Source of the DNA: Myxococcaceae bacterium
Lineage (GTDB): Bacteria; Myxococcota; Myxococcia; Myxococcales; Myxococcaceae
Length of the DNA: 64,000 bases
Direction of reading: 5' to 3'
Assembly (NCBI GenBank): GCA_016926755.1
Contig: JAFGNZ010000048.1
Coordinates: 1-64,000, forward strand
Both the position numbers and the translations under genes were made by a program. The notes below the pieces were generated by a model. That model saw only the letters and a list, made by a program, of their open reading frames with translations. It did no database searches and was not told where the DNA came from. Positions 18,086 through 31,954 of the stretch are shown piece after piece. Each line of letters opens with the position of its first letter. Within the stretch, counting starts at the first letter, position 1.

Positions 18086-18739
18086 TCACGCCGGTTCGCT
18101 CGGCTGCTCTTCCTGCTCGATCAGCCCCTGCTCGATGGCCATCTCCCGCAGGTGGGCCTTGATGCGCTGGAACTGCTGGCGCAGCGCCGTGGCCTTGCGC
18201 GTGAGCGTCGCGCTCGTCACCGGCTCATCCGAGTCCCACATCACCCGCGCCACCTCCGTCCACGCCAGCCGCTGATCCACGCGCAGGATCAGCAACATCC
18301 GCTCGTCGGGCTCGAGGCTCTCACGCAGCGCCCGGAAGCGCTCCTTCACCGAGGTCCGCTGCCACGGGCGCGTGTCGGAGCGCTGGCGCAGCGACGCCTC
18401 GGGGATCCCCGAGGCGCTCACAGGCGTCTCCCGCGCCGCTGGCGAGTGCACCAGCTGGTAGCAGGCGTTGCGCGCCAGGCGATAGGCCCACGTCCGGAAG
18501 GAGCTCTCCCACCGGAACGAGGGCAGCCCCTTCAGCAGGCTCTCACAGAAGACGCTGAACGCATCCTTGGCCAGCTCCGGGTTGTGGAGCACGGAGGCCA
18601 TCAGCCGCATGATCTCCATGCCGTAGCCCTGCAGCGCGCGCTCCACCGCGCCCCCCGTGTCTCCGCGCTGCGCCAACTCTCGGATCTCCTGCTCCAGCTT
18701 CTCGCGATCATTCGCCATCGTCGTCCCCCGTGTGTCCAT
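18086..18739 (-). CDS. Sigma-70 family RNA polymerase sigma factor
   Basis: AKDAFSVFCESLLKGLPSFRWESSFRTWAYRLARNACYQLV (region 2) and LEPDERMLLILRVDQRLAWTEVARVM (region 4). Confidence 0.8.
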   Translation of the reverse strand: MDTRGTTMANDREKLEQEIRELAQRGDTGGAVERALQGYGMEIMRLMASVLHNPELAKDAFSVFCESLLKGLPSFRWESSFRTWAYRLARNACYQLVHSPAARETPVSASGIPEASLRQRSDTRPWQRTSVKERFRALRESLEPDERMLLILRVDQRLAWTEVARVMWDSDEPVTSATLTRKATALRQQFQRIKAHLREMAIEQGLIEQEEQPSEPA

Positions 18740-18785: not shown

Positions 18786-21700
18786 CTAATGGGGCTCCAG
18801 GAGCGGCTGGTTCCCCCTCAAGCCCCTGAGCTGGCGCTCCAACGCCTGCTCCACCTTCCGGGCGAAGCCGTGCGCGCCCTGCTGGCGGGCCACCTCGATG
18901 CCATGCATGAAGGACACCGTGGCGGCCGCCTCGTGGCCGAGCGCCCGGAGCAGCTCGCCCTCGATCCGGTGGAGCTCCACCTCGTAGGAGCGCTCTCCCA
19001 GGGTGTCCGCCCAGCCCAGGGCATGCGTCACCGCGGCCATCCCCTGCGTGTGCTGCCCCAGCTTCAGGTGGAAGTCCGCGATCATTCCGAGGAACAGCGG
19101 CATGCCGGCGCGGATCCCCGCGTTGCGCCACCTCACGAGGTTGGCCCGCAGGAGGCTCAGGGCCTCCCGGGGAGAGCCCTGCTCGGCCAGCGCCCAGCTC
19201 TTGATGAAGACGGACCAGCCCAGCCACAGCCGGAACCGGTGCTCCGTGGAGAGCGCGATGCACCGCTCGGCGCGCTCCAGGGCGCACGTCGCCTCCCCGC
19301 GCAGCTGGCACGCCAGCGCGGTGTAGTTGAACGCCATGGCCAGGGTGTGGGGGTGTCCGATCTTCTCCGCCAGCGCCACCGCCTCCTCACCATAGGCCCG
19401 GGCCCGCTCGTCACGGCCGATGGCCGACTCGACGACGGAGCCGTAGGCCAGCGCGATCACCCGCGGGTTCACCCACTCCTGCACGGCGAGCGCCCGGTGC
19501 CGCTCGAGATCGCACTCCGAGAACTCCAGCGCGCGCTCCAGGTGCTGGAGGGCCACGGGCATCTGGCCCCAGGTGAAGGCGTTGACGGCCAGCATCCGGT
19601 GGCCCATCGAGCGCAGCTCGGCGCTCTGCTGGCGCTCCCCCACGCTCACCAGCAGCTCGGCCAGCTCCTGGGCCACGTTGAACTTCGCGCGCATGAAGTA
19701 GTACGCGAACGAGCCCCAGGTGGAGGCGCGCAGCTGCGGCAGCCTGTCCCCCACCTGGTGGAACAGCTCCAGGGCCCTGCCGTAGGTCTGCTCCACCTCG
19801 CGGGCCCGCACGCTGCGCGTCTGCATGAGGGGAAGGCCCAGGGCCACCATGAGCTGCAGCTCCTGCTCGGGGCTGCGCGCGGACTCCGGGAGGCTGCGCA
19901 ACAGCCGGAGCGCCTGGTTCAGGTGGCTGATGGCCTCCACGTTGGCCGAGCGCAGGCTGGCGCGCTCTCCGGCCCTCGCCCAGTAGCGGATGGCTGGCTC
20001 CAGCTCGCCTGCCTCCGTGTAGTGGTGGGCCAGCATCTCCGGCTGGGTCGCCACCAGCTCGGGGAACTGGGCGGCCAGCACCTGGGCGATGCGCCGGTGG
20101 TACTCCCGCCGCGTGCGCCGCAGCAGGGACTGGTAGGCCGCGTCCTGGATGAGCGCGTGGCGGAACTCGTACCGAGGCTCGGTGGCGCCCTCCGCCTGCT
20201 GGAGCAGGCCCGCCTGCAGCAGCCCGGAGAGATCCTGTGAGAGCGCCAGCTCGTTCCGGCCGGAGAGCGTGGCGAGCAGCACGTGGCTGAAGCCGCGCCC
20301 CACCACGGCGCACAGCTGGGCCAGCGCCTTCTGCCGCCGGGGGAGCATGTCCAGTCGAGCCAGCAGCAGCCCGCTCAAGGTGACGGGGATGGAGGAGTGC
20401 TCCTCGGAGGCCGCGCCCGTGGAGGGCCGCTCCACCACCATGCGCGTCATCTCCTCGACGAAGAGCGGGACGCCGTCCGTCTTCGCTACGAGCTGCTCGA
20501 TGGTCTCCTCCGGCAGCGCTCGCCCGCTGGCGGACTGCCTGACCAGCTCCGCGGTGAGCGGCGGCGGCAGGCGCTCGAGCGTGAGCAGGTGGAGCCGCTC
20601 GGCCTGACGCCAGGAGGGCTGGAAGTCCGGACGCGCCGTGAGGAGGACGTAGAGCCTCGCCCCCTCGAGGCGCTCCAGCAGGAAGCCGAGCAGCTCCAGC
20701 GTGGAGGGATCGGCCCAGTGCAGATCCTCCACGACGGCGAACACCGGGCGCTCCTGGCTCATCCGCAGCAGCACCGTCGTCAGCGCCTCGATCATCTTCT
20801 CCTTCAGCCGCTCCGGGGCGAGCCGCAGATGGGGAGACTCCTCGGCCACGGGCAGCGAGAGGAAGGTGGCCAGGAGGCGCTGGTGCTCCGGCGGCAGCCC
20901 CGCGGCCCGCATGCGCCCCTCCAGCTTGCGCAGGTTCACCTGGGGGCTCCCCTCGGGATCGAGCCGCAGCAGGTGCTGGATCAGCTCGATCACGGGGTAG
21001 AAGGCGCTGGTGCTGAACTGGGCCCAGCACTGGCACCTCAAGCGGATGGCCCCCTCCGCGGACACCCGATCTCGCAGCTCCAAGAGGAGGCGCGACTTGC
21101 CAATACCCGCCTCGCCCCGGACGAGGACGAAGGCGCCCGTGCCCTCCCGCGCCTGCTCCCACCAGCTCAGCAGCTGGCGCAGCTCGTGCTCCCGGCCCAC
21201 CAGCGGCGTGAGCGGCCCGGCGGCATGGGCCCGCTCGAAGCGAGTCGCCGTGCGCTGCTCGCGCAGCAGTCGGTAGAGCTCCAGCTTCGCCACGCCCGCC
21301 AGCCCCTGGAAGAAGCGCGGGCCGAGCGGCTCGGTCCGGAAGGCTCCCCGCACGAGCCTCCACGTGGTGTGGCTCAGGCACGCCGTGTCCGGCGCCGCCT
21401 CCTTCGCCAGCCAGAGCGCGATCTTCGGCGCCTCGCCCTGCAGGGCCGACGTCCTCCCCCTCAGCCCGAGCGGGAGGTTGTCCATCACCACGGTGTCCGT
21501 ATGGAGGCCCACCTTCACGGTGAGCTTGCGGCGCGGCAGGTATGGCAGCTTCTGCTGGATCGCCGTGCCCAGGTGCGTCACCAGGTAGAGCCCCGCCCGG
21601 GCCGCCTTCTCCGAGTCCTCCTCCAATGCCTGGGGATAGCCGAAGCAGGCGAGCACCTCGTCCCCCACGCACGTGGCGATGAAGCCCCCGTGCTGCTGGA

Positions 21701-22850
21701 TGATCTCCGAGCAGGACTGGTGGAAGGCCCCCTCCAGCTCGCTGAAGTCCTCCATGTCCAGGTGCTCCGCGAGCCCCGCCAGATCGGCCAGCCAGCACGC
21801 CACCAGCGTCACCTGCCGGCGCTGGGGCGCCAAGCCCCGAGGCTCATCACGCCAGGGCGTGAGGCGCTCTTCGATGCGGCGCAGGCGATCGCGGAGCTCC
21901 ACCGCGCTGGAGAGGCGCTTGGCGGGATCCTTGGCCAGCAGCTCCGCCGCGAGCTTCTCCAGCTCCTCGGGCAGCTCCGGGCGCCGCTCACGCACCGAGG
22001 GCACCGGCGCCGGGGAGAGCACCCGCTCGCGCAGCTCCGAGAGGCGCAGCTCCGTATAGGGAGGCTCTCCCGTGAGCAGCTCGAAGAGCAGGATCCCCGC
22101 AGACCAGAGGTCCGTGCGCTCGTCCTGCGCCTCGCCCCTCCACTGCTCTGGCGCCATGTAGGCGGGCGTCCCCGCCGCTGGCAGGTTGGGGGCCGCCGGG
22201 AAGATGGCCGCGGCGAGGTAGGCCAGTCCGAAGTCGAGGATCTTCACCTGGCCTTTGCGGGAGATGAAGACGTTGCCCGGCTTGAGATCCCGGTGGATGA
22301 CGTGCTGCTCGTGGGCATGCACCAGCCCCGCGGCGACGGCGCTCATGATCTCCAGGGCGCGGGGCAGCGAGGGCCATTCCCGTTGCAGGAGCAAGGCCAG
22401 GCTCTCCCCTTCCAGGCACTCCATCACCAGGAAGGGGACCTTCGGTTCCCACGGCGCACCGCTCCACTCGGCCACGTCGAAGATGCGCACGATGTTGTCG
22501 TGATCCAGCTGGGCAATGGCCCTCGCCTCCTGCCGAAGCAGGGCGCTCATCGGCACCTCGACGAGCCCCTCTCGAGGGAGCAGGAACTTGAGGGCCACCA
22601 CGCGCTGGAGCTCCTTGTCCCGGGCCCGGAAGACCAGCCCCATGGAACCGCCGCCCAGCCGCTCCAGGATCTCGAAGCGCTGCCCGTCCGCGCCGCCCAT
22701 CCGCTCTCCCGGCGCGGGCGCGCGCAGCGGGACGGACACCTGGGCCACCTGACGCAAGAGCGAGTCCTCGAGGTCCGCGTCATCGGCCTCGTCCCACGGA
22801 GCCTCAGGCTCGCGTGTCTGCTCGTCTGGGTGCCCGTCGCCTTGACGCAT
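18786..22850 (-). CDS. Ser/Thr protein kinase - class III cyclase-like - AAA ATPase - TPR fusion protein (TOMM kinase/cyclase fusion-like architecture)
   Basis: RFEILERLGGGSMGLVFRARD...HRDLKPGN...DFGLAYL kinase; RRQVTLVACWLADLAGL...CVGDEVLACFG cyclase-like; VRGEAGIGKSRLLLELRD Walker A; long C-terminal TPR region. Confidence 0.88.
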   Translation of the reverse strand: MRQGDGHPDEQTREPEAPWDEADDADLEDSLLRQVAQVSVPLRAPAPGERMGGADGQRFEILERLGGGSMGLVFRARDKELQRVVALKFLLPREGLVEVPMSALLRQEARAIAQLDHDNIVRIFDVAEWSGAPWEPKVPFLVMECLEGESLALLLQREWPSLPRALEIMSAVAAGLVHAHEQHVIHRDLKPGNVFISRKGQVKILDFGLAYLAAAIFPAAPNLPAAGTPAYMAPEQWRGEAQDERTDLWSAGILLFELLTGEPPYTELRLSELRERVLSPAPVPSVRERRPELPEELEKLAAELLAKDPAKRLSSAVELRDRLRRIEERLTPWRDEPRGLAPQRRQVTLVACWLADLAGLAEHLDMEDFSELEGAFHQSCSEIIQQHGGFIATCVGDEVLACFGYPQALEEDSEKAARAGLYLVTHLGTAIQQKLPYLPRRKLTVKVGLHTDTVVMDNLPLGLRGRTSALQGEAPKIALWLAKEAAPDTACLSHTTWRLVRGAFRTEPLGPRFFQGLAGVAKLELYRLLREQRTATRFERAHAAGPLTPLVGREHELRQLLSWWEQAREGTGAFVLVRGEAGIGKSRLLLELRDRVSAEGAIRLRCQCWAQFSTSAFYPVIELIQHLLRLDPEGSPQVNLRKLEGRMRAAGLPPEHQRLLATFLSLPVAEESPHLRLAPERLKEKMIEALTTVLLRMSQERPVFAVVEDLHWADPSTLELLGFLLERLEGARLYVLLTARPDFQPSWRQAERLHLLTLERLPPPLTAELVRQSASGRALPEETIEQLVAKTDGVPLFVEEMTRMVVERPSTGAASEEHSSIPVTLSGLLLARLDMLPRRQKALAQLCAVVGRGFSHVLLATLSGRNELALSQDLSGLLQAGLLQQAEGATEPRYEFRHALIQDAAYQSLLRRTRREYHRRIAQVLAAQFPELVATQPEMLAHHYTEAGELEPAIRYWARAGERASLRSANVEAISHLNQALRLLRSLPESARSPEQELQLMVALGLPLMQTRSVRAREVEQTYGRALELFHQVGDRLPQLRASTWGSFAYYFMRAKFNVAQELAELLVSVGERQQSAELRSMGHRMLAVNAFTWGQMPVALQHLERALEFSECDLERHRALAVQEWVNPRVIALAYGSVVESAIGRDERARAYGEEAVALAEKIGHPHTLAMAFNYTALACQLRGEATCALERAERCIALSTEHRFRLWLGWSVFIKSWALAEQGSPREALSLLRANLVRWRNAGIRAGMPLFLGMIADFHLKLGQHTQGMAAVTHALGWADTLGERSYEVELHRIEGELLRALGHEAAATVSFMHGIEVARQQGAHGFARKVEQALERQLRGLRGNQPLLEPH

Positions 22851-23141: not shown

Positions 23142-23627
23142 ATGAGCACAATCCTCCTCGTAGACGATGAACAGGAAATGCTCGACCTCTTCACCGAGGT
23201 GCTCGAGTTGATGGACCACCGCGTCCTCGGAGCCCGCGACGGGCGCGAGGCGCTGGCCCTCGCCCGAGAGGCGTCGCCGGATCTCGTGGTGACGGACTGG
23301 AACATGCCGCGCATGACTGGGCTGGAGCTGTGCCACGAGCTGCACGAGGACGAGCAGCTGCGCGACATCCCCATCATCCTGCACAGCGCCGCGGGCAACC
23401 CGCACGCCCCGGGCGTCCAGTTCGTCCCCAAGAGCTGTGCGCTCGAGGAGTTCGAGGAGCTCGTGCGCAAGCTGCTCGCCAGCACCCACTCGCGGCGGAA
23501 GGTGGCATGTCTCGAGTCCCAGGGCTCACGGGCTCCACCCACCGCCCACCACGCGCCCGCGCGCTCGTCGAGCCCGGGCCTCAGGTTCGACCTGGACTGC
23601 GAGGCTGCATGTTCAACGGCACACTGA
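23142..23627 (+). CDS. Response regulator (receiver domain only)
   Basis: ILLVDDEQEMLDLFTEVLELM, LVVTDWNMPRMTGLELC, IILHSAAG, VQFVPKSC. Confidence 0.88.
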   Translation: MSTILLVDDEQEMLDLFTEVLELMDHRVLGARDGREALALAREASPDLVVTDWNMPRMTGLELCHELHEDEQLRDIPIILHSAAGNPHAPGVQFVPKSCALEEFEELVRKLLASTHSRRKVACLESQGSRAPPTAHHAPARSSSPGLRFDLDCEAACSTAH

Positions 23628-25207
23628 CCCTCATCACGAAGATCCGGCCGGGAGCGGAGGAGTCGCTCGTGGCCACCCTGAAGGCGGTGGATCACCGCAT
23701 CCAGGCCGGAGCGCCCCAGCCCTTCGAGGAGTTGGAGGAGCTCCACTTCGCGCACTGGGCCATCATGAGGCCGCCCGCTGGGAGCCAGCTACCGTCGGGG
23801 GCCCCTGGGAGCAGCCACCTGATCTTCGGAGTTGACCTCTGCCTGCCGGGGCTCCCCTCCCGCAGGGCGAGGCTCCGGATCTCCGTCGAGCACCTCGTGG
23901 ACGGACTGCTCCGCCACGGGCTCCAGCCCGGCGTCGAGCTCCTCGACGCGATCTACCGCCACTGCGAGGACTATCCCGAGCGCGGGCTGGAGGCTCCCTC
24001 GGAAGTCAAAGCGTACCTGCTGCGAAACGCCGTGAAGTACACGGCGCGGCACGTCGACTTCGCCTACCGCGTCACCACGGTCCAGGGCATCCAGGGCCTC
24101 ATGAGCCTGCGGGCCGAGGTGGAGGAGTACCTGAACGATCGCCAGCTGCGCCCGCTGCTGGAGCAGCTCACGCTGGACGAGCTGCACCAGGCGCTCCGGG
24201 AGCGACTCGGCGCACGGCTCGCGCACCTGTCCGGGCCGGAGTGGGATCGGCGCCTGGCCTCCGCCCTGCTCGAGGCGGCTCGCGCGACGGTCGGCTACGC
24301 GCTGCCTGGCCTGTTCGTCCGGCTCGCCACTCGCCTAGCGGAGCGCTTCCGCAAGGAGCAGCGCACCCTGGGGAGCGCGACGATCCCGGATCCGCTGCGC
24401 GAGGAGATCGACGCGCGGCAGCACCCGGTGCAGAACTCCATGATCCTCGTCTCGACGCTCCCGGAGGGCCGGGGCGCCCGGTTCAAGCAGTGGCTCGCCC
24501 TGAGGCTCGTCAACTGGCGGGTGCAGCGCAACGTCGTGGGCCTCAACGACATCCGGGCCATCCACTTCGCGCGCTGGGTCAGCTTCGATCGCGGCTCCGA
24601 GAAGCGGCTGATCTTCATGGTCACCTACGATGAGAGCTGGGATGCGTACATCGACTCGTTCATCGACAACGAGCAGGTGAGCCGGTTCCTCAAGGCCATC
24701 TGGCACGTGACCAAGGGGTTCCCCCAGGGCAAGCCCTTCGTGGAGCCCTTCAAGGCGTGGATCCGGAGCGTGCAGTGCCCCACGCTGGCCTGGTACAGCG
24801 CCTACCGTCATGGCAGGGCCGCGCGACAGGAGGGGGTGGACTCAAGCGACATCTCGGTCACCGATCTGCATGAGGCCCTCCAGCTGCGGAGAGTGCTCGC
24901 CCGCGAGAGCCTGCACGGCCCGGGCGGCCTGCAGGCGCGGAGGGCCCTGAGGAGCTTCCTGGAGCTGGGGAGGTTCCCGTTCCAGAAGAAGGTGATGGGC
25001 TTGGGCGTGGCGCTCTTCCACGTCCTGGCGGATCGGACGTCCCGCATCCGCCTCTGGCTCGAAGAGCTGCGGAGGACACTGCATGCCGCTCTGGGAGAGG
25101 AAGGGAAGTCGAGGAGGCTCACGGTTACGCGCGCGCCGGACATTGCCGTCGCTGCGCACCTGGAGGCGCGGGCGCGGGAGACTGGGGGTACCCTCCAGCA
25201 CCCCTGA
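23609..25207 (+). CDS. Uncharacterised protein with two tandem ferredoxin-like-fold (Dyp/Cld-like) segments
   Basis: Two similar segments: LTLITKIRPG...ELHFAHWAIMRP...HLIFGVDL and MILVSTLPEG...AIHFARWVSFDR...RLIFMVTYD; ATG overlaps the 3' end of the response regulator. Confidence 0.6.
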   Translation: MFNGTLTLITKIRPGAEESLVATLKAVDHRIQAGAPQPFEELEELHFAHWAIMRPPAGSQLPSGAPGSSHLIFGVDLCLPGLPSRRARLRISVEHLVDGLLRHGLQPGVELLDAIYRHCEDYPERGLEAPSEVKAYLLRNAVKYTARHVDFAYRVTTVQGIQGLMSLRAEVEEYLNDRQLRPLLEQLTLDELHQALRERLGARLAHLSGPEWDRRLASALLEAARATVGYALPGLFVRLATRLAERFRKEQRTLGSATIPDPLREEIDARQHPVQNSMILVSTLPEGRGARFKQWLALRLVNWRVQRNVVGLNDIRAIHFARWVSFDRGSEKRLIFMVTYDESWDAYIDSFIDNEQVSRFLKAIWHVTKGFPQGKPFVEPFKAWIRSVQCPTLAWYSAYRHGRAARQEGVDSSDISVTDLHEALQLRRVLARESLHGPGGLQARRALRSFLELGRFPFQKKVMGLGVALFHVLADRTSRIRLWLEELRRTLHAALGEEGKSRRLTVTRAPDIAVAAHLEARARETGGTLQHP

Positions 25208-26702
25208 GGCCGAGCAGGCGCGGGCCGACATGCAGGGGCTGCTCCTGCACGGGTACAAGGAGATGAACAGCGCCGGGTTCCTGTTCCTGAAGATCCAGGA
25301 TGCCCGGAGGTGCGGCCAGTGGCTGCGGGAGCTCCTGCCCGCGCTGACGACCGCCGCCACCCGGCCCCGCGAGGAGGTCCATCAGCAGGAGTCGTGCCTG
25401 AACCTCGCGCTCACCTGGGAGGGGCTGAAGGCGCTGGGCCTGGAGCGAGCGGCCCTGGAGACGTTCCCCTTCGAGTTCCGCAAGGGAATGTCGGAGCGCG
25501 CGCGCGTTCTCGGAGACACGGGGAGCAGCGCTCCCGAGCACTGGGAGTTCGGTGGGACCCAGAGGGACGGCCGCTCCCAGCGGGAGCTCCACCTGCTGCT
25601 GGTGATCTATGGGCGTGATGAGGAGACGCTGAACGCCCTGCTGGCCCAGCACCGCGCGCGCTTCGCGGCAGCGGGCCTGGAGGAGATCTACTGCCAGCGC
25701 ACCCGCCACCTGAAGGAGCAGACGGAGCTCGCCGGCAGGCCCTACACGTTCCTCAGGGAGCACTTCGGCTTCCGTGACTCCCTCTCGCAGCCCTCGATCG
25801 AAGGGTTCAGGGATGCCGCCGGCGCCCCTCCCAGCTATGATCCCGCCCCGCTCAAGGCGGGAGAGTTCATCCTGGGGTACGAGAACGAGTACGGCGAGAG
25901 GCCGCCCTCCCCCAGCGTCTCCGCGAGCCAGGATCCGGCCGGCTGGCTCGGGGAGTCCTGGGAGGAAGAAGGCCGCAAGGATCTGGGACGCCACGGCACC
26001 TACCTCGTCCTGCGCAAGCTCCAGCAGGACGTCAGCGCCTTCAACGACTTCGTCGAGCAGCACAGAGCGCTCGCCGCCCGCCACACTCCGGATCCGGAGA
26101 AGCAGGCGGAGTGGCTGAAGTCCCGGATGATCGGGCGCTGGCCCGACGGCGCGCCCTTGAAGCCAGGCGAGGCCGAGCAGCCCGCGCAGCCACCGGTGAC
26201 GGAGCACGGGATCTCCAATGCGTTCGACTTCCGCGCCGATCCCCACGGCTTCGGCTGCCCGCTGACGTCCCATACGCGGCGCGCGAACCCGCGAGACTCG
26301 CTGCCCCCGGAGCGCGCGCTGTCGCTGATGATCAGCCGGCGGCACCGGATCCTCCGCCGCGGCATTCCCTACGGGCCTCGCTATGATGCGGATCGCGAGG
26401 GCCAGGAGCGAGGCCTCGTCTTCGTCAGCCTCAACGCCAACATCGCTCGGCAGTTCGAGTTCATCCAGCAGAGCTGGATGAACAACGAGAAGGCGGGAGG
26501 ACTCTATGACGAGAGGGATCCGGTCACCTCCAGCGTCGAGAGCGGCAGGCTGACCCTCCCGGAGCGGCCCCTGCGGCTCTGCCTGACGGGGCTCCAGCAC
26601 TTCGTGACGATGAAGGGCGGCGGGTACTTCTTCCTGCCGAGCGTGCGAGCGCTCCATTTCCTGGCCGAGCTCGCCCCCCAGCCGCCGTCACAACCTGCCT
26701 GA
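25083..26702 (+). CDS. Dyp-type peroxidase family protein (start uncertain; alternative ATG near 25231)
   Basis: ADMQGLLLHGYKEM, FGFRDSLSQPSIEGF, GEFILGYENEYG, HTRRANPRDSLPP, RHRILRRGIPYGPRYD, GLVFVSLNANIARQFEFIQQSWMN are Dyp signatures. Confidence 0.85.
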   Translation: MPLWERKGSRGGSRLRARRTLPSLRTWRRGRGRLGVPSSTPEAEQARADMQGLLLHGYKEMNSAGFLFLKIQDARRCGQWLRELLPALTTAATRPREEVHQQESCLNLALTWEGLKALGLERAALETFPFEFRKGMSERARVLGDTGSSAPEHWEFGGTQRDGRSQRELHLLLVIYGRDEETLNALLAQHRARFAAAGLEEIYCQRTRHLKEQTELAGRPYTFLREHFGFRDSLSQPSIEGFRDAAGAPPSYDPAPLKAGEFILGYENEYGERPPSPSVSASQDPAGWLGESWEEEGRKDLGRHGTYLVLRKLQQDVSAFNDFVEQHRALAARHTPDPEKQAEWLKSRMIGRWPDGAPLKPGEAEQPAQPPVTEHGISNAFDFRADPHGFGCPLTSHTRRANPRDSLPPERALSLMISRRHRILRRGIPYGPRYDADREGQERGLVFVSLNANIARQFEFIQQSWMNNEKAGGLYDERDPVTSSVESGRLTLPERPLRLCLTGLQHFVTMKGGGYFFLPSVRALHFLAELAPQPPSQPA

Positions 26703-26742
26703 GCCCGCTCTCTCCCGTTGGACCTTCCAGGGAGCGCAGCGG

Positions 26743-27708
26743 ATGGAGCGACGGGGATGGACATGGGTGTTGGCGCTGGCGTTGATCTGCGGGGGCGGTG
26801 TGGCGACGGCCTCCCCCGCGGCCACCGCGCGAGCCCAGGGTGGAGAGAGCCCACCGCCCGTCCCGGCGTCGGACGGTGGAGCTCCTCGCCTGGGCCAGTC
26901 CGCGCCCTTCCTGGGCGTGGTGATTCCCCATGACTCCGTCGACCTGAGCTCGAAGTTCGAGGGTCGGCTGGAGCGCCTGGAGGTCGACGTGGGCGACACC
27001 GTCCGGAAGGGCGACGTCCTGGCGCGGCTCGATGTCCGCCCGCTGGAGCAGGAGCTGGCGGCCGCGCGCGCCACGGTGCAGGGCTCGCGCGCCGAGGAGC
27101 AGGCCGCCTCCCTCGCGCTCGCCGAGGCTCGGGAGAAGAAGGGCCGGTACTTCACCCCGCGCTCCCTCGAGCTGGGCGTCTATTCCAAGGAGGAGCTGGC
27201 CACCATCCGCTACCAGGAGAGCACCGCGCTCGCACGGCTGCAGGCGGCCCGAGCCCGCACACGGGAGCAGCAGGCCCGCGTGGTGGACCTGGAGCAGAAC
27301 GTGAGCGAGGCCGCCCTCGTAGCGCCCTTCGACGGCGTCGTGGCCACCCGTCCGGTGAGCCCTGGCGCGCGGGTCGCGGCAGGGCAGCCCATCCTCCGCC
27401 TGCTGAGCACCGGCGGCAGGAAGATCCGCTTCGCCGTCCCCGAGGAGGAGGCACGGCGGCTGGAGCCCGGCTCGCCGCTGCGGTTGTTGATCGATCCGCA
27501 AGGCCTCACGCTGGCGGGAGTCGTGGAAAGCATCACCCCCGAGGTGGACGCGGCGGCCCGCATGGTGTTCGCCGTCGCGGCCTTCGGCGAGCCGCCACCG
27601 GACACGGTCGCCACAGGCATGGTGGCCCACGTCCAGTCGATCCCGGCGCCCGAGCGCGTCAGTCAGCAGGAGACCGCCGCCCCCACCCCTACCCGGAGCG
27701 GGCCCTAG
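26743..27708 (+). CDS. HlyD/RND-type periplasmic adaptor protein
   Basis: KFEGRLERLEVDVGDTVRKGDVLARLDVRPLEQELAAARATV... ALVAPFDGVVATRPVSPGARVAAGQPILRLLS. Confidence 0.85.
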   Translation: MERRGWTWVLALALICGGGVATASPAATARAQGGESPPPVPASDGGAPRLGQSAPFLGVVIPHDSVDLSSKFEGRLERLEVDVGDTVRKGDVLARLDVRPLEQELAAARATVQGSRAEEQAASLALAEAREKKGRYFTPRSLELGVYSKEELATIRYQESTALARLQAARARTREQQARVVDLEQNVSEAALVAPFDGVVATRPVSPGARVAAGQPILRLLSTGGRKIRFAVPEEEARRLEPGSPLRLLIDPQGLTLAGVVESITPEVDAAARMVFAVAAFGEPPPDTVATGMVAHVQSIPAPERVSQQETAAPTPTRSGP

Positions 27709-27763
27709 CGCCTCGCCGGGAGCTGGGACGCGCGCCCGCGCGGCCAGCCCAGGAGCACGAGAC

Positions 27764-28711
27764 ATGGAAGCCGTTCGCTCGAAGATCTTCCGAGAGGAAG
27801 CACTGCGCCATCACGAGGGCGCTCAGCAGGAAGGAGACGTGCTCCGCATCTCTCCGGCCTGGACCCGGTGGACGTACTGGGTGCTGCTGGGGCTGCTGCT
27901 CGCGGCGCTGGGGTACTCCTTGCTGGGGACGCTGCCCGAGTACGCCTCCGGCCCCGCCCTGGTGATCGTGGAAGGCCAGAGCCACCTGACGGTGGACACG
28001 CCAGGCATCGTGTCTTCCGTGGAGGTGCGGCCCGGGCAGCGGGTGGAGCCAGGCCAGGCGCTGGTGAGCTTCCGCTCCCAGGAGGAGACGGTCTCCCTGG
28101 AGCGCATCCAGCGCGAGTTCCAGCTCCAGCTCATCCGGGTGCTGAGAGATCCCTCGGATGAGGGGGCCCGGGAGACGCTCACCTCGCTGCGCGCGGAGCT
28201 CGAGCTCGCCCAGGCGCGGCAGCAGGCACGCACCCTGCGCGCGCCCCATGCGGGCGTGGTGAGCGATCTGCGGATCCGCCCTGGCCAGTACGTGGCGCCG
28301 GGAGAGGGCGTCGTCTCCGTCGTGGGCGATGATGTGGAGGTCTCCCTCCTGGCGCTGCTGCCGGGCGGGCAGCGCCCCCTGCTGGAGCCGGGCCGCCCCC
28401 TGCGGGTGGAGCTGGACGGCTTCCACCATGAGTACCACACGGTCACGATCGAGTCCGTGGGGGACGAGATCGTCGGCCCCACCGAGGTCCGCCGTTTCCT
28501 CGGCCCGGAGATCGCGGACGCGCTGCAGCTCAACGGCCCGATGGTGCTGGTGAGGGCGCGGCTGCCGGCCGCGACCTTCCAGAGCAAGGGCCGCACCTAC
28601 AACTACTTTGACGGGATGCTGGCGCGAGCGGACGCGCGGGTGCGCAAGGAGCGCATCCTCGTGGCGCTGGTGCCGGGACTGAAGGGAGCACTGGGCTATG
28701 AAGACCGCTGA
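27764..28711 (+). CDS. HlyD-family secretion adaptor (bacteriocin-exporter type)
   Basis: N-terminal TM, VDTPGIVSSVEVRPGQRVEPGQALVSFRS, LRAPHAGVVSDLRIRPGQYVAPGEGVVSVVG; overlaps the exporter gene. Confidence 0.8.
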   Translation: MEAVRSKIFREEALRHHEGAQQEGDVLRISPAWTRWTYWVLLGLLLAALGYSLLGTLPEYASGPALVIVEGQSHLTVDTPGIVSSVEVRPGQRVEPGQALVSFRSQEETVSLERIQREFQLQLIRVLRDPSDEGARETLTSLRAELELAQARQQARTLRAPHAGVVSDLRIRPGQYVAPGEGVVSVVGDDVEVSLLALLPGGQRPLLEPGRPLRVELDGFHHEYHTVTIESVGDEIVGPTEVRRFLGPEIADALQLNGPMVLVRARLPAATFQSKGRTYNYFDGMLARADARVRKERILVALVPGLKGALGYEDR

Positions 28712-30920
28712 GGCGAAGGTACAGCCGCTGGCCGACCGCTTCCCTGCCCTGCGAAACCTGCAGGCACGGGCGCGGGGACGGATTCCGCTCGTGCGGCAGC
28801 TCTCGGAGACCGAGTGCGGCGCGGCGTGCATCTCCATGGTGCTGGGCTTCCACGGCAAGCCCGTGCGGCTCGAGGAGGTCCGGCAGGCCATGGGCGTCGC
28901 GCGCGACGGCGTCTCGGCGCTGGACATCCTGCGCACGGCGCGCACGTTCGGGCTGCGGGGCCGGGGCGTGTCGATTGACGAGGAGGCGCTGCGCTACCTG
29001 CCGACAGGCACCATCCTCCACTGGCAGTTCTCCCACTTCGTGGTCTTCGAGCGGCTGGGCCGGGACTGCGTCCACCTGCTGGATCCGGGGCAGGGCCGGC
29101 GGCGCGTGCCCATGGAGCGCTTCCGCCAGGCGTTCACGGGCGTGGCCCTGCTGCTCGAGCCCGGCGAGCACTTCGAGCCGGGCAAGGCCCGCCCGCGGCG
29201 CGCCTCTCGCTACGCGATGCAGGTGCTCCAGCAGTCGCACACGCTCACGCGGGTGCTGGTGATGTCGCTGGTGCTCCAGCTCTTCGCGCTGGCCATCCCG
29301 GTGCTGACGGGGCTGGTGGTGGATCGCGTCGTCCCGCGCGGGGACGTGCACCTGCTGGGCGTGGTGGCCGTGGGGCTCATCGCGCTGACGGGCTTCCAGC
29401 TCCTCACCGCGCTCATCCGCAGCCACCTGCTTCTGGAGCTGCGCACGCGGCTGGACTCGAACATGACGTTGGGCTTCGTGGAGTACCTGATGGGGCTGGC
29501 CTGGTCGTTCTTCCAGGTCCGAGCGGCGGGAGATCTGCTGGCGCGGCTGGGCAGCAACGCCACCGTGCGGGAGATCCTCTCCTCCAGCGCGCTCACCGGG
29601 CTGCTCGACGGGACGCTGGTCATCCTCTACCTGGGGTTGATCTTCGTGGTGAGCCCGCAGCTGGGGCTGATCGTCCTGGGGCTGGGGCTGCTGCAGATCC
29701 TCATCCTGGTGCTCTCCACGAAGAAGCAGCGCGCCCTCATGTCGGAGACGCTGGAGGTGGAGGCGAAGAGCCAGAGCTACCAGGTGGAGATGCTCACGGG
29801 CATCCAGACGCTCAAGGCGTTCGGCGTGGAGCACCAGGCGGTGCAGCGCTTCTCGGAGCTGTTCGTGAACGTGCTCAACGTTTCCCTGCGGCGGGGTCGG
29901 CTGACGGCGTGGGTGGAGGCCCTCAACGGGAGCCTGCGCATCGCCGCGCCGATGGTGCTGTTGAGCTTCGGCGCCCTGCAGGTGCTGAGCGGGGGGATGA
30001 CGTTGGGCGCCATGCTGGGGCTCAACGCGCTGGCGGGAGCGCTGCTCGTGCCGCTCTCCAACCTGGTGAGCACCGGCAGCCAGCTCCAGCTGCTGGGCAG
30101 CTACATCGAGCGCATCGACGACGTGTTCGACACCCCACCCGAGCGGGATCCCACGAAGCCCGGACAGGCGGCGCAGTTGAAGGGGGGCATCGAGCTGGAT
30201 CGAGTCTCCTTCCGCTACGCGCCCACCGCTCCGCTGGTGGTGAAGGACGTCTCGGTGCGGATCGAGCCGGGGCAGTTCGTGGCGATCGTGGGGCGCTCGG
30301 GCGCGGGGAAGTCCACCCTGGCCAACCTGTTGCTGGGGCTGTACCTGCCCACCTCGGGGCGGGTCCTCTACGACGACGCGGATCTGGCGGATCTGGACCT
30401 GCAGTCGGTCCGCAGCAGGATGGGAGTCGTCCCACAGGAGCCGGCCTTCTTCAGCACCACGCTGCGCGCGAACATCGCGCTGAGGGATCCCACGCTGCCG
30501 CTGGAGCGGATCACCGAGGCGTCCAAGCTGGCGAGGCTCCACGAGGACGTGCTGGCCATGCCCATGGGCTACGACACCCCCCTGGTGGATCGGGGCGCGT
30601 CGCTCTCGGGGGGCCAGCGTCAGCGGCTGGCCCTGGCCCGGGCGCTGGTCCACAACCCGGCCGTGCTGTTGCTGGACGAGGCCACGAGCGCGCTGGATGC
30701 CATCACGGAGGGCCGGGTGCAGGAGGCGCTGGCGTCGCTGCGCTGCACGCGGATCGTCATCGCCCACCGGCTGAGCACGGTGGTGGACGCGGATCTCATC
30801 CTGGTAATGGACGACGGGCAGCTCGTGGAGGCCGGGCGCCACGAGGAGCTGCTGTTGAAGCGCGGCGTCTACGCGGAGCTGGTGCGCGCCCAGCTCCAGA
30901 AGACGGGCCGGCTGGAGTGA
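28698..30920 (+). CDS. C39 peptidase-containing ABC transporter (bacteriocin/peptide exporter type)
   Basis: LVRQLSETECGAACISMVLGFHG (catalytic Cys), HWQFSHFVVFERLGRDCVHLLDPGQG (His/Asp), [49 protein letters not shown]. Confidence 0.93.
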   Translation: MKTAEAKVQPLADRFPALRNLQARARGRIPLVRQLSETECGAACISMVLGFHGKPVRLEEVRQAMGVARDGVSALDILRTARTFGLRGRGVSIDEEALRYLPTGTILHWQFSHFVVFERLGRDCVHLLDPGQGRRRVPMERFRQAFTGVALLLEPGEHFEPGKARPRRASRYAMQVLQQSHTLTRVLVMSLVLQLFALAIPVLTGLVVDRVVPRGDVHLLGVVAVGLIALTGFQLLTALIRSHLLLELRTRLDSNMTLGFVEYLMGLAWSFFQVRAAGDLLARLGSNATVREILSSSALTGLLDGTLVILYLGLIFVVSPQLGLIVLGLGLLQILILVLSTKKQRALMSETLEVEAKSQSYQVEMLTGIQTLKAFGVEHQAVQRFSELFVNVLNVSLRRGRLTAWVEALNGSLRIAAPMVLLSFGALQVLSGGMTLGAMLGLNALAGALLVPLSNLVSTGSQLQLLGSYIERIDDVFDTPPERDPTKPGQAAQLKGGIELDRVSFRYAPTAPLVVKDVSVRIEPGQFVAIVGRSGAGKSTLANLLLGLYLPTSGRVLYDDADLADLDLQSVRSRMGVVPQEPAFFSTTLRANIALRDPTLPLERITEASKLARLHEDVLAMPMGYDTPLVDRGASLSGGQRQRLALARALVHNPAVLLLDEATSALDAITEGRVQEALASLRCTRIVIAHRLSTVVDADLILVMDDGQLVEAGRHEELLLKRGVYAELVRAQLQKTGRLE

Positions 30921-30922
30921 GC

Positions 30923-31954
30923 TCAGCCGACGTTGCGCAGGAGCTCTTCGCCGGCCTCCACCAGCTGCCGCACCTCGTCGATCAGCTGATCCGAGCGCAG
31001 ACGACCGGACAGGAAGACGTGGGCGCCCAGCTGTCGTGCTCGCTCATCCTCATGGAGTCGGCCCGCCAGCACGAGCTGCCCGCGGATCTTCTGCCGTGTC
31101 ACCGCCTCCACGGACTGGAGCGGCGCCAGGACCACGGTGTGATCGCTGGCCTTCACGACGTCCTCGGTGCGGGCGACGCGGGCCCAGAGGCCCTCATCCT
31201 CCAGCAGCTTGAGCAGGCCCTCGGTGGCCTGGGCGCCCCAGCCATACACCCAGATCTCGGGTTCAGCCTCGGCGACGAGCTTCGGCTCCAGCTGCACGCG
31301 GGGCATCTCCGGCTCGGTGACGCGGGCGTGGGCGGGCAGATCCGTCACCAGCGGCAGCATCACGGGCAGGCCCTCCTGGTGAACGGTGGGGACGGCGGTG
31401 CCCTGGAGGAGAGCACCGAGCATCAGGTACTCAGCGCGATCGGTCACCAGGGGCAGGTGTTCATCCACCTCGGGGAGGGGGATGGGCTCGATGGGGCGGT
31501 GGGCGTCGATGAGGTGGGGGTAGTAGAGGCGCTCGATGGCGCGGGAGATGGCGCCATCGGTGGCCAGGAGCGCGACGACGCGCTTGCCGGTGGCGCTGGC
31601 CACTTCGTCCAGGGTGGGAGGGAGCGCGGGGGCGGCGGCGGCCACCACGAGGATCGAGTCACGGGGCCCTTCGAGGCGGAGGGGGATCACGCGACAGGTC
31701 TCGGCCAGCTGAGCGGGCAGCAGGTCCGCGAGCTTCTCGTTGAGGGGCTCCTGGTCGAGGAAGACGACGGGGAGTTGGGCCTGACCGGCGAGGAGCTCGA
31801 GCACCTGCTGTGCGGTGCAGAAGCCCATATCGACGACGACCTGGCCCAGGGGGACTCCCCACTTGTTGTGGAAGCCGAGAGCCGCGCGGAGCTGAAGGTC
31901 ATCGATCAGCCCGGTCGTCTGCAGGAGGTCGCCCAGTCGCTTCTTCCGGATCAT
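30923..31954 (-). CDS. MshEN / GspE N-terminal domain protein
   Basis: KRLGDLLQTTGLIDDLQLRAALGFHNKWGVPLGQVVVDMGFCTAQQVLELLAGQAQLPVV fits the MshEN motif pair; no ATPase domain follows. Confidence 0.75.
   Translation of the reverse strand: MIRKKRLGDLLQTTGLIDDLQLRAALGFHNKWGVPLGQVVVDMGFCTAQQVLELLAGQAQLPVVFLDQEPLNEKLADLLPAQLAETCRVIPLRLEGPRDSILVVAAAAPALPPTLDEVASATGKRVVALLATDGAISRAIERLYYPHLIDAHRPIEPIPLPEVDEHLPLVTDRAEYLMLGALLQGTAVPTVHQEGLPVMLPLVTDLPAHARVTEPEMPRVQLEPKLVAEAEPEIWVYGWGAQATEGLLKLLEDEGLWARVARTEDVVKASDHTVVLAPLQSVEAVTRQKIRGQLVLAGRLHEDERARQLGAHVFLSGRLRSDQLIDEVRQLVEAGEELLRNVG

Follow-up and report, generated by a model that had tools for sequence, protein, structure and literature searches.

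Independent peroxidase and exporter modules side by side in a Myxococcaceae genome: a P2-DyP unit and a C39 exporter most likely serving lanthipeptides encoded elsewhere

We analysed a stretch of 64,000 nucleotides from a Myxococcaceae bacterium (assembly GCA_016926755.1, contig JAFGNZ010000048.1, positions 1 to 64,000; hereafter the window), in which six forward-strand genes bring together a DyP-type heme peroxidase (DyP) and a peptidase-containing exporter. The first gene (23,142-23,627) encodes a receiver-only response regulator (RR) of 161 amino acids (aa) (Pfam Response_reg, 7.5e-20). It is followed by the gene for P2 (23,609-25,207), an uncharacterised tandem ferredoxin-fold partner of DyP with 532 aa and no Pfam or NCBIfam family, and by the gene for DyP itself (25,230-26,702; ~490 aa; PF21105 [DyP_N] and PF20628 [Dyp_perox_C]). 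Downstream lie the genes of two HlyD-type adaptors, the periplasmic HlyD1 (26,743-27,708; 321 aa; Pfam HlyD_3 and HlyD_D23, above the TIGR01730 cut-off), which begins with a signal-peptide-like segment, and HlyD2 (27,764-28,711; 315 aa; Pfam HlyD_D23 and HlyD_3), with a single hydrophobic segment at its N terminus. The last gene, which overlaps that of HlyD2 by 14 bp, encodes a LanT/PCAT-like C39-peptidase ABC exporter of 740 aa (28,698-30,920; Pfam C39, ABC_membrane and ABC_tran). Divergent from this series, on the reverse strand, is the gene of a 1,354-aa Ser/Thr kinase-AAA-TPR protein (18,786-22,850; Pfam Pkinase, AAA_16 and TPR_12), after which comes a gene for a Sigma70 region-2-like protein (18,086-18,718, reverse strand; Pfam PF04542) that accompanies the kinase in relatives.

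An earlier note, made from the DNA letters alone, had recognised the six same-strand genes and their domains, and both stand, with the starts of the second gene and of DyP refined. The true start of P2 is the ATG at 23,609, the listed GTG at 23,330 being spurious, and it overlaps the RR stop by 19 bp, an overlap conserved in seven relatives (G001-G006 and G034). For DyP, the ATG at 25,230 is the most likely start. The spacing between DyP and HlyD1 is 40 bp.

Comparison with relatives shows that the six genes are two independent modules lying side by side and not a functional unit. DyP, the C39-ABC exporter and P2 were searched in the window genome and 58 relatives, and eight genes (the six, the kinase and the kinase's neighbour) were mapped on the relative loci retrieved. 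The window genome, G001-G006 and G034 keep the kinase together with RR-P2-DyP, and in G013 and G033 the set is rearranged; the kinase-AAA-TPR gene belongs to the peroxidase module. The HlyD-HlyD-C39 block is intact in nine genomes (the best exporter orthologues are 75-90% identical to the window exporter) and adjoins DyP only in the window. Exporter and DyP are 5.2 kb apart in G006 and 13.9 kb apart in G002, and are unlinked or on different contigs in G004, G005, G013, G020, G033 and G034. In G020 it is the kinase-RR pair that adjoins the exporter, with P2-DyP on a separate contig. The peroxidase module is present in G001 and G003, but neither has a close exporter orthologue. The six-gene order, whose conservation the earlier note had proposed as a check, was kept in no other genome searched. 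At the DNA level the comparison resolves three blocks, with breaks at 23.76 and 26.68 kb. The first block (18.3-23.76 kb) and the last (26.68-30.92 kb) have matches of 80-86% in G002, G006 and G020, and the best match of the P2-DyP block (23.8-26.64 kb), at 71%, is the remote P2-DyP locus of G020. The adjacency of peroxidase and exporter is a chance or lineage-specific neighbourhood. A possible heme-supply link, prompted by DyP lying near DoxX and HemA in G004, G005 and G020, was dropped, as G001 and G003 show no such arrangement.

The exporter DNA block begins ~60 bp 5' of HlyD1, and a short sequence, CGTCACAAC (26,686-26,694, forward strand), lies within the last DyP codons, 57 bp 5' of HlyD1. 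Each of the nine orthologous exporter loci has it exactly once, at 57 bp from the HlyD1 ATG if that start is certain and at up to ~63 bp when measured from match starts; it was not found in ten exporter loci that are more distant. The 64 kb window contains one copy, against 0.17 occurrences expected from shuffling. Because the block carries this conserved sequence just 5' of HlyD1, the exporter probably has its own promoter, of which CGTCACAAC would be the candidate element.

By family score (TIGR01413, 114.3 bits vs a cut-off of 100.5) and catalytic residues (distal Asp183, proximal His348 and distal Arg376, numbered from ATG 25,230), we class the window protein as a DyP-type peroxidase. Its best PDB sequence match is 8re3 ('Peroxidase, putative'), and it accounts for the single DyP_N match of the window genome. 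To follow its partner across bacteria, we compared a P2 alignment (A1; a scan with a single P2 sequence gave no match) with the genomes of 84,980 species, one per species, which yielded 145 loci, 80 of which were kept. Assigned by record title, several records being metagenome bins, these loci fall in Myxococcota, Armatimonadota, Bacteroidota, Cyanobacteriota, Acidobacteriota, Pseudomonadota, Gemmatimonadota, Chloroflexota, Actinomycetota and Planctomycetota. In 78 of the 80 the gene directly after P2, on the same strand, encodes DyP, that is, in 78 of 78 complete loci, as the two others run into a contig edge. P2 and DyP form one open reading frame (ORF) in 24 loci, and the 54 with separate genes mostly have a gap of <100 bp. 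Within this set the distal Asp (77/79), proximal His (78/78) and distal Arg (78/78) of DyP are conserved, and the His, Ala, Arg and Trp of a P2 motif, IHFARW, are kept in 81/81 sequences. Between the distance matrices of P2 and DyP the correlation is 0.86 (n = 71; maximum 0.09 in 1000 permutations), a value that is partly species phylogeny. A C39 exporter lies within ≤10 kb in one of the 80 loci (~ten phyla), and that locus is in the window's own genus.

P2 and DyP very likely function together, and since the two are found fused, direct contact between them is likely. This P2-DyP unit is the new element of the analysis. Literature searches on P2, DyP-P450 fusions and a DyP-catalase-related link returned nothing relevant, which is no proof that the literature has none. 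Simpler arrangements were also seen in relatives. Four of their DyPs lacking the tandem P2 have a gene for a single-domain P2-like protein of 142-177 aa just upstream, and, apart from the P2-DyP pairs, DyPs of relatives stand in operons in which a single-domain P2-like gene is followed by one for an uncharacterised 300-356-aa protein and then by DyP (L031 8,855-10,426; L032 6,265-7,856; L033 9,470-11,082).

The AlphaFold2 model of window P2 consists of two ferredoxin-like halves and a helical middle (pLDDT 82, pTM 0.79). Its top Foldseek match is WhiE-ORFI, an ABM/SchA-like protein (9lmn; E 9.7e-6, query TM-score 0.32); the ferredoxin-repeat protein CT0912 (3gn6) and ABM-type proteins also match, and neither DyP nor Cld is among the matches listed. 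Thus, of the two Dyp/Cld-like segments that the earlier note had read in this protein, the two-part build is borne out and the relationship is not, the nearest folds being ABM/SchA-like. By Foldseek, P2 shares the tandem ferredoxin-like halves with these and other dimeric alpha+beta barrel proteins, but identity is only 11%, and profile searches with 60 P2 members gave no Pfam or NCBIfam family, scattered weak matches and no ABM profile match. Unlike the ABM/SchA-like proteins, most P2 members also have a hydrophobic segment between the halves (19-residue hydropathy ≥1.6 in 51 of the 60 homologues, generally at one shared position in the middle). We propose, as moderately likely, that P2 is a membrane tether for DyP and handles a lipophilic substrate. 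In such an arrangement P2 would bind DyP directly, keep it at the membrane and offer it the substrate.

A third heme enzyme is fused or nearby in 49 of the 80 P2-DyP loci: a P450 in 36 and a catalase-related protein, with 3e4w as its nearest solved relative, in 13. Fusions take the form P450-P2-DyP in Rhizobiales and DyP-P450 in Acidobacteriota, and otherwise the P450 lies beside the pair. In these other bacteria the P450 or catalase-related protein would work on the DyP product. Signalling genes recur too, as Ser/Thr kinase-AAA-GAF-cyclase proteins at Bacteroidota loci and a cyclase-TPR protein at Rhizobiales loci; the 136 neighbouring proteins that were scanned yielded no clear recurrent fourth partner. 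In the window and its close relatives the pair is accompanied by the kinase, and neither a P450 nor a catalase-related enzyme lies beside it. The P450 domains of the Rhizobiales fusions were seen to carry GF[ATG]PTN in the I-helix, where the acid of the customary acid-alcohol pair is missing (L099, L111, L120, L124, L127, L129, L136, L137, L139, L144, L145 and L149). We rejected this loss as general evidence of hydroperoxide chemistry, as most separate P450s with a readable I-helix motif retain Asp or Glu. The P450 partners in Methylococcales are ~677 aa long, with a long N-terminal extension (L125 4,339-6,375; L134 2,906-4,945; L159 6,993-9,026), and that of L125 has a GST_C_2 match.

One speculative and rather unlikely reading, drawn by analogy, is that P2-DyP and its interchangeable P450 or catalase-related enzyme make up a widespread multi-heme complex that, at the membrane, makes or converts oxidised lipids as oxylipin-like signals and is coupled to signalling by kinases or cyclic nucleotides. 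It would then parallel, in bacteria and with an unrelated peroxidase, the fungal heme peroxidase-P450 oxylipin synthases (PMC4420034) and the coral catalase-related ones (PMC5617202). Like the fungal linoleate diol synthases, P2-DyP bacteria other than that of the window unite heme peroxidase and P450 in one chain or operon, but the fungal enzymes belong to the peroxidase-cyclooxygenase superfamily, whereas here the peroxidase is DyP-type with an extra P2 domain.

The pair might instead be a detoxification unit, in which DyP, fed or anchored by P2, removes H2O2 or organic peroxides at the membrane, with the P450 and catalase-related neighbours as further stress enzymes and the kinase as an oxidative stress sensor. 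The conserved catalytic residues of DyP, the 3e4w-related neighbours and the kinases and nucleotide cyclases nearby would all fit. P450s, however, are atypical for peroxide removal, and still no other third partner is as common; they are even fused to the pair, and a defined substrate is suggested because DyP has a dedicated fused partner; we therefore take detoxification to be possible, if on balance unlikely. A role in secondary metabolism of the polyketide or aromatic type, with P2 as an ABM/SchA-like monooxygenase or cyclase and DyP and P450 tailoring the product, appears doubtful. WhiE-ORFI, the best fold match, is an ABM/SchA-like polyketide protein, and the IHFARW motif, being invariant, points to a site of catalysis or binding, but the 136 neighbouring proteins include no recurring synthase, and the pair spans ~ten phyla without a surrounding cluster.

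Turning to the exporter, the nearest solved protease to its C39 domain is LahT150 (6mpz, E 4.7e-32), and its Cys, His and Asp, already noticed in the earlier reading, align with the LahT150 catalytic triad Cys27/His101/Asp117 (PMC6363468). The protein is thus a C39 exporter of the AMS/PCAT, LanT-like kind, with the triad-bearing C39 domain fused to ABC membrane and ATPase domains. The best NCBIfam model is that of the NHLP bacteriocin exporter (TIGR03796), matched over the full length, but membership was rejected because the score of 619 bits is under the curated cut-off of 853.3. As the earlier note had remarked, no double-glycine (GG) precursor ORF lies nearby (motif search, 23-34 kb), nor is the usual, though not strictly required, linked precursor and modification enzyme present beside the exporter in the window, and the corresponding loci of its own genome are unlinked.

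In profile searches, which underlie all genome-wide gene counts here, the window exporter was the one C39 peptidase of the whole genome (9.59 Mb), although the assembly comprises 409 contigs and a second exporter could be hidden. The same genome has two LanM genes on other contigs, C279 and C128 (TIGR03897 above cut-off; DUF4135 and LANC_like), and no exporter gene was seen in the LanM stretch of either. C279 has three precursor-like ORFs, of which two were tested and both exceed the TIGR03898 cut-off, as does the one precursor ORF of C128. LanM and lantibiotic-type double-glycine precursors, the elements of a class II lanthipeptide pathway, thus stand together elsewhere in the genome. CGTCACAAC was considered as a signal common to exporter and lanthipeptide loci and rejected, as it is absent from the latter. 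In G013 and G033, exporter orthologues of 77% identity lie directly 5' of a 79-aa GG-leader precursor of the mersacidin/lichenicidin type (class II lanthipeptide) and LanM. The C279 precursor core TGCTGPVRKTCGIVICP aligns with the exporter-linked precursor of G013, TGCDGPERQTCGIINCS, and the two LanM proteins are 66% identical. G005, a single-contig genome, has one C39, with LanM and precursor ~3.7 Mb off. G003 has neither a close exporter orthologue nor a strong LANC_like match, and G001 has one weaker LANC_like match.

The substrate of the exporter is most likely the lanthipeptide set encoded elsewhere in the genome, because the C39 is the sole one, two LanM loci have no exporter, and orthologues stand beside LanM and precursor; this favours one of the two options raised by the earlier note, that of a substrate encoded elsewhere. 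The window exporter would then be a shared lanthipeptide exporter, with its specificity in this strain predicted from these gene associations. It shares with the AMS/PCAT lanthipeptide transporters (LanT; LahT of Lachnospiraceae, 6mpz) the N-terminal C39 triad and ABC domains, and in its orthologues the setting beside LanM and mersacidin/lichenicidin-type precursors. It differs in being of Gram-negative type, its operon including two HlyD adaptors, and in being encoded apart from its likely substrates as the sole C39 of the genome. One shared exporter encoded elsewhere is how the products of lanthipeptide clusters that have no transporter could still be exported in these myxobacteria.

Other peptide loci came to light alongside. 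G004 and G005 have a gene for a GG-leader peptide of 52-54 aa facing the exporter (L056 6,178-6,336; L057 5,794-5,958), with a core, KPKHQVTVKPDGTIVIVVYR, that contains no Cys; the L057 peptide has no NCBIfam match, and these peptides are possibly a non-lanthipeptide substrate. More distant C39-HlyD exporters of relatives lie, by appearance, near LanM-like genes and precursor-like peptides (L062, L063 and L070) or near large proteins resembling LanB/LanC (L065 and L067, the former also near other GG peptides), which would point to a rich, mostly uncharacterised lanthipeptide repertoire. On contig C70 of the window's own genome (L078 3,146-6,743), genes for an APH-like kinase, a HopA1-family protein and a LanC-like protein are consecutive and resemble a myxobacterial class V-type lanthipeptide synthetase set.

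That all six genes form one export system, with the heme peroxidase maturing the cargo of the C39 exporter or needed for it, as the other option had it, is highly improbable: the common strand, the 40-bp gap and the rough exporter-DyP proximity in G002 and G006 favour it, but pair and exporter are nonadjacent in relatives and mostly not even near each other, no other genome searched keeps the order, the exporter retains its own conserved upstream element, its orthologues stand instead beside LanM and precursor, and a single P2-DyP locus among 80 has a C39. Failure of peroxidase and exporter genes to occur together in relatives was the refutation that the earlier note itself had set.

The joint explanation that we favour, and hold to be likely, is a signalling-linked peroxidase operon next to an independent lanthipeptide exporter module. 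The first (23,142-26,702, with the divergent kinase at 18,786-22,850) would be transcribed as an operon of RR, P2 and DyP. In the second (26,686-30,920), a HlyD-HlyD-C39/ABC exporter under its own upstream element would cleave and export class II lanthipeptides from the two loci elsewhere in the genome. Besides the phylogenetic share of the distance correlation and the fragmented assembly, several points weigh against this explanation or its parts. The DyP-HlyD1 gap is only 40 bp, so read-through transcription is possible, and the proximity of exporter and peroxidase module in G002 and G006, together with the kinase-RR beside the exporter in G020, makes a lineage-specific regulatory link possible. 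The hydrophobic segment of window P2 is weak (mean hydropathy 1.21), a model of a fused P2-DyP is too poor to show an interface (pTM 0.56), and no P450 or catalase-related gene lies beside the P2-DyP of the window.

What most DyP peroxidases do physiologically is acknowledged to be an open question (PMC8197335). The window DyP has the distal Asp, proximal His and distal Arg of the family, and differs in being one of a clade that is paired with or fused to P2 and has GFRDS instead of GXXDG. For this group, the P2 partner and the frequent P450 or catalase-related third member offer a specific starting point for finding the natural substrate.

Neither Rfam nor a tRNA scan gave a match in the 64 kb window, and PADLOC gave no anti-phage defence match for P2 or DyP; its matches of the kinase, the ABC transporter and the receiver protein were only to models that apparently share those general domains. 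On the other side of the exporter, an MshEN-domain gene on the opposite strand (30,923-31,954) converges with it and ends 2 bp from the exporter stop.

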